Shown: piece after piece, positions 29,236 through 33,286 of the stretch
Position numbering within the stretch: the first letter of the stretch is position 1
Layout of the letters: every line of letters starts with the position of its first letter
Origin: Chromatiaceae bacterium
GTDB taxonomy: Bacteria; Pseudomonadota; Gammaproteobacteria; Chromatiales; Chromatiaceae
Direction: 5' to 3'
Assembly (NCBI GenBank): GCA_028277465.1
Contig: JANQGF010000333.1
Span: forward strand, 1-33,286
Length of the DNA: 33,286 bases
The notes under the pieces: generated by a model
Told to the model about the DNA's origin: nothing
The model's database searches: none
What the model saw: only the letters and a program-made list of their open reading frames with translations
Position numbers and translations under genes: made by a program

Positions 29236-31947
29236 TCAGCTCGCGCTCTGATGCAACCGTGTCACGCTCGCCTGGCGTTGGTAAAAGACGAAGCGGTTCT
29301 TTCCGCCACGCTTGGCACGATACATGGCGCCGTCGGCGAGGTTCATCAGCTCCTCGGCATTCACCCCGTCGCGAGGGTACAGGGCGATGCCGATGCTGGC
29401 GCTGACACGGGCGGTCTGTCCGTCGAGGAGATAGGGCGCTGAAAGCCGTGAGCAGATCTTCTCAGCGACCTCGGCCAACCCCTTTTCGTGCTTGAAGTCG
29501 GGCAGCACGACGACGAACTCGTCGCCCCCCAGACGCCCGACGCTGTCGCTGCCGCGTACCAAGTCGCGCAGACGAGCAGCCACCTCGCGCAGCAAGACAT
29601 CCCCGACATCGTGGCCCATGGTGTCGTTCACCTGCTTGAACTCGTCGAGGTCGATGAACATCAGCGCGACCTCGTTTCCGTCACGCTCGGCTCGCACCAG
29701 CGCCTGGCCCAAGCGGTCGACCAACAAGGTACGATTGGGGAGCCCGGTCAGAGGATCCCGATAGGCCATCTGTGACAACCGCTCTTCACGCGCCTTGTGT
29801 TCGCTGATGTCGCTCAGGATCGCCACGAAATTGAGGATCTTGTCGCCCTCGTCTCGGATCGCGCGGATGCTAACCATGCATGGCAGGAGATCGCCCGCCT
29901 TGTGCCGATTCCACACTTCACCACGCCACTGTGACTCCAAGAGCAACGACTGCCACATGTCACGATAGAAGTTGCCATCGTGGTGATTGGACTTGAGCAA
30001 CCGAGCATTGTGGCCCACCACCTCGTCCGCCGAATAGCCGGTCACCTCCGTAAAGGCGGGATTCACTTGGGTGATGGTCCCCTCGCTGTCAGTCACCAGG
30101 ATGGCGTCCAGGACATGCTCCGCCACCGCCGCCGCCATGCGCAATTCACGCTCGGCGAGCTTGTTGGAGGTCACGTCGCGACCATAGAGGTAGAGGAAAT
30201 CGGCACCTTCGATCACCGCGGGCTCGAAGGTGTAGAAGCGTCCCGCTGCCTTCACCTCCAGCGGGAGTAACTGTTCATGTGTCATCCCCGCGTCGATCTG
30301 TTCGAGCCAGGAGGCAGGCATCCGCTTGCCCACCTTGCAGCTGCAGCCCTCCAAGATCTCGCGGCTCGCATCGTTCGCGTAGCGAATCACACCATCGTGG
30401 ACACCGATGCGCAGCACCGGGTTGGGATTGCGGGCCGGAAAGCTGGTGAAGAGCCGACGTTCTTCTTTCAATTGACGCTCTTCCGTGACCTCACGCACGA
30501 GCAGCGCCTCGTCCTCGTCGACACTGTAGCGGGTAATGGTGAAGACCCGCTCGCCGCCTCCATCGCACTTCAGAACACGCTCCACTTCCCGCTCATCCGC
30601 GGCCAGCAAGAAATGGCGCATCCCGCCGCACTCGGCGATATAGCGCTCCATCAAGGGATTAAAAGGCGCTGGCCCCTTGACGCGTGTCACCACGATCCCG
30701 ACGCCAAGACTCTCGGTGAGCCTTTGCAGACGTGACAGCTCGGCTTCGTGCTGCTCCCCCAGAAGGGCGAGGCGACTGAGCTCGATCCGCTCCCGCACCT
30801 CGATCTGAAGACGCTCCCGATAGTCGACGACGGCACTGCCGAGGGCGTGAAACTGACGCTCCAGCACCCATATCTCGTCGCCTTGCTCGGCACTCTCCGG
30901 GAGTGTACCAAGCCTGTCCCGACCCAAGACCACCACCTCGCGACTCAAGACACGAATCCGCGCTGCCAACCAGGTTGTGAGCAAGGCGAAGGCCCCGACC
31001 ATCAACGCCACTAACAGGAGGCGCTGTTGATGGTTCTTCTTGAGGATGGTGCTCGACAGCCGCTCCCCCTCGTCGGTCGCGATAAAGGAAGCAAACTGCA
31101 GGTTGAGGTCCGAAGCACCATAGTCGAAGAAGGACTTCCCCATCATCAGGAAGCGCTTCACCAGTCCTTGCACCTTGACGCCACTCGGGATCCGATCAGG
31201 GGCACTGCTCGCGATGACTTTACCGCTGTCGGGCTCGACGAGCGCCATGATGCTGCCGTGCTTTCCGTAACCAGCGGCAGCGAACAGGAACTCGTCGTCG
31301 AGGGGTGCCTCCAGCATCAGGGTGGCCAGCGGACGGCCGTCGGGGGCCTCGATAAGGTGGGCGGCGATGACGTAGGGATGGCCATCGAAGCTGGTCATAT
31401 AGGCCTGATTGTGGCTCAGCTTCCGCAGCAAGACCGATGGTGCCCGCAGGGCGGCGGGCAGATCGAAGTCATTGCGATGGGGAATATGGTGATACACCTC
31501 TCGCACCCGACCCTCTGCATCGAGCAGAACGGCGTGTCGGGCATAGAAAAAGGCGCGCATCACAGAAGCGCTCGGCATCCACTCAGGCGCGTTCTGATAA
31601 TGCCAGACTCCGTCCTTGAAGTACCCCTCTCCCTCGGCGACGGCGCCGCCGGTCCCGAAACGTCCCTGCTCTACATAATCTAGAAACTGCTTCTGCGAAG
31701 CGACGATCTTGGCCGCGTGGTGGATCCACTGAACCTGCTCATCGAAGCGATGCCGATCCTCCGCCGCTCGATGCTCCAGCTCGCGACGCAACTCGTCGCG
31801 AAAGAGCCCTCGCAGCTCCCGCTCCTGCCACTCCGCCAGCAAGATCCAGATCCCCATCCCCAACCCGAGGGTGAACAGCAGCATCTGCACCGCCAAGGGG
31901 ACATGGCGGAAGACCTTGAAGCTGGGATAAGGGAATCGGCTCTTCAT
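29236..31947 (-). CDS. Membrane diguanylate cyclase with periplasmic sensor and PAS domains
   Basis: 903 residues. Makes c-di-GMP in response to a periplasmic signal. A first membrane helix (about 20-38) is followed by a large periplasmic domain of about 290 residues, a second helix (about 330-350), and a HAMP-like/coiled linker rich in Arg/Glu/Leu. Then come two or three PAS-like domains; the clearest is AILVTDSEGTITQVNPAF-TEVTGY. The C-terminal GGDEF domain begins at DPLTGLPNR; RLGGDEF is intact and RGSD five residues before it is an RxxD inhibitory site, so it should be active and product-inhibited. No EAL domain is present. The ATG at 31947 is chosen; a TTG at 31980 is in frame. It lies 36 bases after the binding-protein gene, its probable ligand partner. 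Confidence 0.93.
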   Translation of the reverse strand: MKSRFPYPSFKVFRHVPLAVQMLLFTLGLGMGIWILLAEWQERELRGLFRDELRRELEHRAAEDRHRFDEQVQWIHHAAKIVASQKQFLDYVEQGRFGTGGAVAEGEGYFKDGVWHYQNAPEWMPSASVMRAFFYARHAVLLDAEGRVREVYHHIPHRNDFDLPAALRAPSVLLRKLSHNQAYMTSFDGHPYVIAAHLIEAPDGRPLATLMLEAPLDDEFLFAAAGYGKHGSIMALVEPDSGKVIASSAPDRIPSGVKVQGLVKRFLMMGKSFFDYGASDLNLQFASFIATDEGERLSSTILKKNHQQRLLLVALMVGAFALLTTWLAARIRVLSREVVVLGRDRLGTLPESAEQGDEIWVLERQFHALGSAVVDYRERLQIEVRERIELSRLALLGEQHEAELSRLQRLTESLGVGIVVTRVKGPAPFNPLMERYIAECGGMRHFLLAADEREVERVLKCDGGGERVFTITRYSVDEDEALLVREVTEERQLKEERRLFTSFPARNPNPVLRIGVHDGVIRYANDASREILEGCSCKVGKRMPASWLEQIDAGMTHEQLLPLEVKAAGRFYTFEPAVIEGADFLYLYGRDVTSNKLAERELRMAAAVAEHVLDAILVTDSEGTITQVNPAFTEVTGYSADEVVGHNARLLKSNHHDGNFYRDMWQSLLLESQWRGEVWNRHKAGDLLPCMVSIRAIRDEGDKILNFVAILSDISEHKAREERLSQMAYRDPLTGLPNRTLLVDRLGQALVRAERDGNEVALMFIDLDEFKQVNDTMGHDVGDVLLREVAARLRDLVRGSDSVGRLGGDEFVVVLPDFKHEKGLAEVAEKICSRLSAPYLLDGQTARVSASIGIALYPRDGVNAEELMNLADGAMYRAKRGGKNRFVFYQRQASVTRLHQSAS

Positions 31948-31983
31948 CCTTTCGCTCAGTCCCGCTGGAACCCAGGACAAGTA

Positions 31984-33024
31984 TCAGCCGCGCTCGAGCT
32001 CCTCCAGGCGCACCTGCCCCTCAGAACTAAGGGGGACCATACCGCCTCCGGGCGATTCTCCCGGTTCTCCGATCAACTCCTGGTCCCGGAACAGCCAACC
32101 CGCCTCTCGCAACCGGGTCGCCGGGATGATCCCGAAGCGAGGGTCGACCCGATCTGAATTCTCCATCAACCAGGCAACCAGTTTGCTCGCGTGGGGGTTG
32201 GCGGCAACCCCCTCCCAGGTGGTGAGGTTGTAGGTCCGATAGAGAGGGTAGTCCCCTCGCACCAATTGGCCGTCGCTCTCCGGCATCACACCGTCGATCT
32301 TGAGGGTCCGGACCCGACCTGTCCCGCCATTGTGTTCAACCATCCAAAGGGTCTCGTAGCCGATCGCCCCCTTGGACGAGGCAACGCCCGAGATCATGTC
32401 TGGGATAGTGCTCACCTCGCGCAGGCGCGGGCTGAAACGATCTTGGTCACTCAGCAGGAGTCGCCAGTGACCGGGACGTGCCTTGCAGTGGAGACGGGCA
32501 ATGGGGCGCACCCGCTCCGCCCTGCCCCCGGAGCCGCTCAACACCTTCACCGCGTCCCAGTGGGAGACATGCCCTTGGAAAAGGCGCCGAGCCTCACGCA
32601 GAGAAACGCTCTCCACCGGGTTCTCGGCATGGGTCAGCAGCGCCAGAGAGGCGATGCCGAGGGTGTGGAACCTCAGTCCCGGAAGGCGATCGCTGTACCC
32701 CGCCGGGCAGCAGAAACCGCCGATGTCGGCGTGTTTGCCTTCCAGCTTTCCTGCGGAGATGCCACAAGTCCCCTCCTGAACCGCGATGCGGATACCCCGC
32801 TCCCGGGCGTACTCCTGAATCAGAGGGAGAAGCGCCGGATAGAGATGCTGATCGAGAGTCACGGCCAGATCTGCTCCCGCGGCCCACCTCTCGTAGACCA
32901 CGGGAGCCTCACCCCACTCGGGGGGCATGGGAACGATGCCCTCCGGGTCGGTGAAGGCCGGCCCGCCAGGAGCACTTCCAGCCAAGGCCGCACCGACCCA
33001 GGACGACAACACGAGAACCCTCAT
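31984..33024 (-). CDS. PstS-like periplasmic substrate-binding protein
   Basis: 346 residues. A hydrophobic signal peptide (MRVLVLSSWVGAALAG) is followed by a PBP-like domain of the PstS/phosphate-binding superfamily. Typical pieces are SLREARRLFQGHVSHWDAV (about 141-159), matching the family pattern around F-x-G-x-I-x-x-W, and SSKGAIGYETLW (217-227). Four cysteines (87, 105, 106, 180) could form disulfides. No ABC transporter genes are nearby. Instead a membrane diguanylate cyclase follows after 36 bases, so a sensory, not transport, role is likely. The ATG at 33024 is chosen because the promoter at 33089-33117 would make the upstream in-frame extension untranscribed. The ligand is unknown; phosphate or another anion is a guess. 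Confidence 0.85.
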   Translation of the reverse strand: MRVLVLSSWVGAALAGSAPGGPAFTDPEGIVPMPPEWGEAPVVYERWAAGADLAVTLDQHLYPALLPLIQEYARERGIRIAVQEGTCGISAGKLEGKHADIGGFCCPAGYSDRLPGLRFHTLGIASLALLTHAENPVESVSLREARRLFQGHVSHWDAVKVLSGSGGRAERVRPIARLHCKARPGHWRLLLSDQDRFSPRLREVSTIPDMISGVASSKGAIGYETLWMVEHNGGTGRVRTLKIDGVMPESDGQLVRGDYPLYRTYNLTTWEGVAANPHASKLVAWLMENSDRVDPRFGIIPATRLREAGWLFRDQELIGEPGESPGGGMVPLSSEGQVRLEELERG

Positions 33025-33088
33025 AAGCGAAAGATGTCTCGTCGTAAGCACTCCTAGATCACCAGAAGCTGAGTAGATCGGTTTGAAA

Positions 33089-33117
33089 TCAATAGTCGAT
33101 GACAAGGCACATGTCAA
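33089..33117 (-). promoter_or_regulatory. Sigma-70-type promoter for the binding protein/cyclase operon
   Basis: On the minus strand a perfect -35 TTGACA (33112-33117) is followed by 17 bases and TATTGA (33089-33094), a partial -10. Transcription would begin near 33082, giving a leader of about 58 bases to the ATG at 33024. Hexamers are seen directly; activity is inferred. Confidence 0.55.
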
Positions 33118-33137: not shown

Positions 33138-33286
33138 ATGGTCTCCGATGCGAACCCGAACTGCCGCCAACGGCCTAGCGAGGCCCTGCCTCAGACCGAC
33201 GAGTCGTGGGGGTGGTGGCCCCGGTTGATCGAACGAAGCGTCTAAGCTTCGGAGATAACCGCCTGAGCGGTGGGAGGACGGTAAGT
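33138..33286 (+). other. Hairpin-rich window end; 35-codon open frame of unknown meaning
   Basis: A frame at 33138-33245 (ATG to TAA) encodes 35 residues containing SWGWWPRLIERSV. The same stretch holds consecutive short stems: GGCC-N6-GGCC near 33172-33185, CGAAGC (33234-33239) with GCTTCG (33246-33251), and ACCGC (33258-33262) with GCGGT (33267-33271). Dense hairpins suggest a structured RNA, such as the start of a group II intron, cut by the window edge. Identity is not established. Confidence 0.2.

Follow-up and report, generated by a model that had tools for sequence, protein, structure and literature searches.

The window analysed here is a 33,286-nucleotide stretch of DNA from a Chromatiaceae bacterium (GenBank assembly GCA_028277465.1, contig JANQGF010000333.1). 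It comprises an entire contig (C15), and the view of the upstream side of the genes discussed here ends with it, at position 33286. Near this end, two adjacent genes on the minus strand encode a secreted binding protein and a membrane-bound diguanylate cyclase, referred to below as the receptor. A preliminary description had proposed that the two form a stand-alone sensory unit for cyclic diguanosine monophosphate (c-di-GMP). We consider it probable that the two genes encode one two-part receptor, a judgment that applies to the receptor and not to its ligand. The features are as follows:

33089..33117 (33117-33112 / 33094-33089), minus strand: possible weak promoter, TTGACA-N17-TATTGA, present as a string in the sequence and unscored by the consensus scan
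31984..33024, minus strand: secreted PstS-fold binding protein (PF12849), 346 amino acids; open reading frame (ORF) with ATG at 33024 and a Sec signal peptide
32764..32766, minus strand: codon of Cys87 (GTCG loop), invariant in 43/43 copies and aligned with the Ser of GGSGTG in PstS 4exl
32707..32712, minus strand: codons of the vicinal Cys105-Cys106 (DIGGFCCP), invariant in 43/43 copies, with Cys105 on the Asp of DIGNSD in 4exl
32485..32487, minus strand: codon of Cys180 (RLHCKxRPGHW), invariant in 43/43 copies and aligned with the first Ser of SGSR in 4exl
31948..31983, minus strand: intergenic gap of 36 bp between the binding-protein gene and the receptor gene, from the ORF coordinates
29236..31947, minus strand: membrane receptor and diguanylate cyclase, 903 amino acids, from the ORF and Pfam
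31048..31827, minus strand: LuxQ-like tandem-PAS periplasmic ectodomain, about residues 41-300, from AlphaFold2 (AF2) and VIA, and common to the partners in relatives
29800..30135, minus strand: cytoplasmic PAS domain, residues 605-716 (PF13426, E 2.2e-19)
29293..29766, minus strand: GGDEF domain and RxxD inhibitory site, residues 728-885 (PF00990, E 7e-51; RGSDSVGRLGGDEF)

The layout is as the preliminary description gave it, two minus-strand ORFs separated by 36 bases. Its statement that transporter genes are lacking also holds: none was recognised in the neighbourhood of the pair or beside the binding protein's relatives. The genes that border the pair on the far side belong to deoxythymidine diphosphate (dTDP)-rhamnose synthesis.

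The binding protein was correctly described as PstS-like and secreted, with four cysteines (Cys 87, 105, 106 and 180) in its mature part. Judged by eye, its Sec signal peptide is plausible and lacks a lipobox. Its sole Pfam match was PF12849 (PBP_like_2; 31.2 bits, cut-off 27), with no match to Phosphonate-bd (PhnD-like) or to the polyamine-type SBP_bac families. The AF2 model (mean predicted confidence, pLDDT, 87.5) had the PstS fold, superposing on 4exl_C with a VIA Z of 24.0 over 250 residues at 2.7 Å; AioX was absent from the top rows of this comparison. Against TIGR02136, the curated model of PstS, the protein scored 34.3 bits, far under the cut-off of 206.6, and the homologues L034, L039 and L041 likewise fell under it.

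The receptor, too, proved to be the two-helix membrane PAS-GGDEF protein first proposed, with two long membrane-crossing helices in the AF2 model. Its output is GGDEF only, Pfam finding no EAL domain, and the RxxD site is intact: the order RGSD-SVGRL-GGDEF places the I-site at the correct spacing from GGDEF. The two helices flank a domain of about residues 41-300, modelled (pLDDT 80.2) with a tandem-PAS/Cache architecture. Realignment of 997 solved chains to this ectodomain with VIA put LuxQ periplasmic domains in all five top positions (Z 14.2-14.5, 195-207 residues, 3.0-3.4 Å), two of the five from LuxP-LuxQ complexes; the best non-LuxQ chain reached Z 11.7. The Pfam LuxQ-periplasm model had no match in the receptor up to E 10. 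The likeness to LuxQ is thus one of predicted fold, not of sequence membership, and a modelled fold in common with LuxQ is no proof of docking.

Relatives were gathered by the binding protein alone, so their selection was blind to the partner. Among 50 distinct copies from Gammaproteobacteria and Nitrospirota, the next gene on the same strand encoded a receptor with the same periplasmic domain in 43. The two genes mostly overlapped or lay within 50 bp of each other, with a 4-bp overlap in six cases. Carriers included Chromatiaceae, symbiont and Beggiatoa-type Gammaproteobacteria, and Nitrospirota such as Magnetominusculus. A survey of this adjacency had been set beforehand as a check on the proposed unit, and the objection that the genes are not neighbours in relatives fails. 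Seven copies were unpaired (L034-L037, L077, L079 and L083). The genomes of L034-L037, L077 and L083 encode a receptor with this ectodomain elsewhere; in that of L079, the receptor adjoins the genome's other binding-protein copy.

The same association was observed in genome samples. The binding protein was found, by strong matches (E below 1e-80), in 11 of 369 gammaproteobacterial genomes (the carriers) and the ectodomain in 18, with all 11 inside the 18 (Fisher 9e-17). In 198 Nitrospirota genomes, 12 carriers were nested within 14 genomes with the ectodomain (Fisher 2e-17). All Fisher values given here are descriptive, as the genomes are not independent. Chance adjacency was nevertheless rejected, given 43/50 copies paired and a Fisher value for co-occurrence of <1e-16. 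Pairwise distances of binding protein and ectodomain were correlated (r 0.77, 43 pairs), a value reached in 0 of 2000 permutations; when permutation was limited to paralogues within four genomes, r was 0.51 and was reached by 85 of 5000. These correlations are modest evidence that cognate pairs co-evolve. Other layouts were also encountered. In G201 (L086:3040-9624), the binding-protein gene lies between two same-strand receptors with the same ectodomain, which suggests one binding protein for two receptors. Three Nitrospirota genomes (G515, G518, G520; L110-L119) each have between three and six paralogous pairs; extra unpaired receptors are also present in two of the three.

The outputs of the 43 adjacent receptors, assigned by Pfam, varied widely. 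Three were GGDEF only (the window, L040 and L080) and nine were GGDEF-EAL, the downstream receptor of L086 being put in this class by its likeness to L084. Kinase outputs (HisKA, hybrid, or HisKA_2/HWE) accounted for 26. The other five were left unassigned: two were unscanned, two were truncated at the end of a contig and one showed PAS alone. Among the unlinked receptors were two kinases (L177, L180) and a SpoIIE phosphatase (L178). Because outputs differ among partners, the c-di-GMP enzyme of the window is only one instance of a wider input module. On these sequences, the conserved unit is the binding protein plus the receptor ectodomain, and c-di-GMP is one of several outputs. The description of a stand-alone c-di-GMP unit thus stands as to a conserved pair without a transporter; as to c-di-GMP as the general output it does not, most relatives having kinases.

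Cys87, Cys105, Cys106 and Cys180 were invariant in all 43 paired copies, as were Asp112, Arg113, His179 and Arg183, and the same residues are kept in the Beggiatoa-type copies of alignment A1. The motifs GGSGTG, DIGNSD and SGSR of PstS bind phosphate, and in a profile alignment to PstS 4exl three of the cysteines (Cys87, Cys105 and Cys180) fall on these anion-site positions. In addition, the genome of the window has a separate PF12849 protein (PstS) at each of three pst loci. Phosphate or sulfate, ligands put forward in the preliminary description, are thus unlikely, because four cysteines are invariant, three of them at phosphate-site positions, and because the three pst loci have their own PstS.

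Nearly all genomes with the pair also carry dsrA, scored with TIGR02064 over its cut-off. It was present in 10 of 11 gammaproteobacterial carriers as compared to 112 of 369 genomes overall (Fisher 4e-5), and in 12 of 12 Nitrospirota carriers as compared to 84 of 198 (Fisher 2e-5); pooled, 22 of 23 carriers had it, against about a third of genomes overall. Genomes with the ectodomain behaved similarly (17/18 Gammaproteobacteria, 14/14 Nitrospirota). Over the dsrA tests for binding protein and ectodomain, Fisher values ranged from 4e-5 to 9e-9. A role for soxB as the common denominator was rejected: it was over its cut-off in 11 of 34 carriers and in none of the Nitrospirota carriers, and the pair is thus not a Sox-linked trait.

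The proposed order of events in signalling is as follows. A small ligand would be held at the cysteine-lined site, and the secreted binding protein would close on it. The ligand-bound protein would then dock on the membrane protein at its LuxQ-like ectodomain, and docking would alter the activity of the cytoplasmic PAS-GGDEF part and so set the level of c-di-GMP. In evolution, the same ectodomain has been joined to diguanylate cyclase, cyclase/phosphodiesterase, histidine kinase and SpoIIE-phosphatase outputs. As the ligand we tentatively put forward a thiol-reactive species, perhaps a reduced or intermediate sulfur compound. What favours a ligand that reacts with thiols and may derive from sulfur is that almost all genomes with the pair carry dsrA. 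Arsenite (As(III)) or a soft metal, or redox state, are the alternatives.

That the cysteines serve to sense arsenite, antimonite or a soft metal ion, with outputs reaching beyond arsenic metabolism, is unlikely but has a precedent: AioX binds As(III) through one Cys (PMC5908839), and here, too, a type II binding protein has cysteines in its anion site. However, AioX is PhnD-like, a family that the window protein does not match; no arsenic gene was identified next to the loci inspected (annotated in part, and not searched for arsenite oxidase genes); and the carriers are linked by dsrA. Improbable to a slightly greater degree is that the cysteines form a thiol/disulfide redox switch by which the pair would respond to oxidants or to the redox state of the periplasm, with no bound small molecule. 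Four invariant cysteines, a vicinal pair among them, in a periplasmic protein would suit such a switch, but the venus-flytrap fold, the alignment of the cysteines to the ligand site and the invariant Arg and His around them suggest a ligand, and no thiol oxidoreductase was consistently linked at the inspected loci.

About equally improbable is that the ectodomain binds a small ligand of its own in the dCache/tandem-PAS fashion, the binding protein being modulatory or dispensable. The tandem-PAS fold is common to DctB and the amino-acid receptors, which bind directly, and some members of the family have no binding protein; yet the ectodomain is present in all sampled genomes that have the binding protein, and the closest fold is that of LuxQ, which depends on LuxP for its signal. 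Finally, that this is an ordinary phosphate or sulfate binding protein for a transporter encoded elsewhere, beside the cyclase by chance or for regulation, is very hard to sustain: the PstS fold, a PF12849 score over the cut-off and a weak TIGR02136 match are as expected of one, but the TIGR02136 score is far too low, ordinary phosphate uptake is provided for by the three other pst loci, no convincing pstC was found by genome search in three carriers (G233, G239, G515), and the partner is kept across two phyla, with Cys at the anion-site positions.

Several observations weigh against a two-part receptor with a cysteine-held, sulfur-related ligand. The preliminary description had given the pair a promoter of its own; the string TTGACA-N17-TATTGA is there, but its strength is doubtful, as the -10 element agrees with TATAAT at 3 of 6 positions and the consensus scan reports nothing at the site. 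The profile alignment to 4exl is distant (~20% identity), though its placement of the motifs is consistent, and the four cysteines might be mere disulfides. One carrier (G222) lacks dsrA, and the dsrA association is confounded by ancestry, since sulfur lineages cluster on the tree, and is suggestive only. Receptors without any binding protein occur in G007, G300, G377, G410 and G452; because such receptors exist, the ectodomain need not always use one, and it may work on its own or together with a binding protein, either a different one or one that is shared. The genome of the window itself has a second receptor (L171:4442-7660; G000:C328) with the same ectodomain, a PAS-HisKA-HATPase output and, by eye, a FixJ-like regulator following it; no binding protein is encoded next to it.

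G007 and G377 share this arrangement of kinase and FixJ-like regulator. One binding protein might serve both receptors of the window's genome. In G340, the binding-protein gene remains only as an in-frame fragment beside the receptor. Compared with G239 (L081:387-6404), G359 (L201:3260-8269) has kept the receptor at the same locus but has lost the binding-protein gene that would stand between the receptor and the gene upstream of it, an absence to be read in light of the 77% completeness of the G359 genome. A purB-like gene, labelled by eye, adjoins the receptor in G300, G359 and G452.

The receptor proposed here has close parallels in known systems. In NspS/MbaA of Vibrio cholerae, the binding protein contacts the periplasmic domain of a membrane c-di-GMP enzyme (PMC8079147), and in both systems the binding-protein gene lies immediately upstream of the enzyme's. 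The analogy drawn in the preliminary description, with a binding protein of another family, is thus apt: NspS is a polyamine-binding protein of the PotD type, whereas the window protein has the PstS fold and a Cys site, and matches PF12849 alone. MbaA has SGDEF and EVL domains, whereas the window receptor has GGDEF only (nine relatives have EAL). LuxQ resembles the receptor in its two helices and is the best match to the ectodomain's predicted fold (Z 14.5). LuxP docks on the LuxQ ectodomain, as the window protein would on its partner, but LuxP is of another binding-protein family and binds autoinducer-2 (AI-2), LuxQ is a hybrid kinase, and the window receptor has no LuxQ-periplasm match. AioX/AioS (and ArxX, ArrX) likewise repurpose a type II anion-binding protein with a ligand-site Cys for sensing, with a kinase partner; AioX, however, is PhnD-like with one ligand cysteine, Cys106 (PMC5908839), as compared to PBP_like_2, four invariant cysteines and several kinds of output here. 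PstS itself shares the fold but serves a transporter and lacks the cysteines at its anion site. In Salmonella, the periplasmic binding protein ArtI is needed for a diguanylate cyclase response through STM1987 (PMC8846402), with arginine as ligand, a dCache_1 ectodomain and a binding protein of a different family.

The logic of NspS/MbaA, AioX/AioS and LuxP/LuxQ is thus known; the novelty lies in the family, in which a PstS-fold protein with a cysteine site is linked to an ectodomain like that of LuxQ and the outputs are interchangeable. Open-access full texts yielded no account of the pair, although absence there is no proof. Binding proteins are considered to be widespread activators of receptors (PMC9602780). 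According to a census review, of the 27 families of the periplasmic binding protein (PBP) clan, SBP_bac_3 alone has been studied in c-di-GMP networks, as domains within enzymes. The pair may perhaps represent a new family of periplasmic sensors, in which a PstS-fold phosphate site rebuilt with cysteines reports a sulfur-derived or thiol-reactive ligand, via a LuxQ-like ectodomain that, in sulfur bacteria of the Dsr type from two phyla, has been connected to c-di-GMP, phosphorelay and phosphatase outputs; we hold this full reading only provisionally. For most c-di-GMP enzymes the inputs are unknown, and binding-protein inputs are known for few. With one input module and many outputs, the search for the ligand could turn to the partner that is simplest to assay. 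Should the ligand be a sulfur intermediate, the pair would be a widespread sensor of external sulfur in sulfur bacteria, able to couple to the decision between sessile and motile life.

Two further observations concern the neighbours and relatives of the binding protein. In three genomes, a gene for a small membrane-anchored protein with conserved Cys (NC..C, SVCSK..M.W) adjoins the binding-protein gene (L048:3294-3836, L049:5399-5899, L079:8004-8492), on the upstream side of some copies; it had no Pfam or NCBIfam match that would point to a known role. A separate, widespread family of stand-alone PstS-like proteins (WAGCGITKKAFM ... GGGATKGI ... DIGGSCRP), found at L005, L007, L008, L012, L016, L018, L022 and L026, also has Cys in the anion-site loops. 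It is a distant relative of the window binding protein (hhalign 99%), and in some genomes it is located near TlpA-like (L012, L026) or SCO-like (L018) genes.

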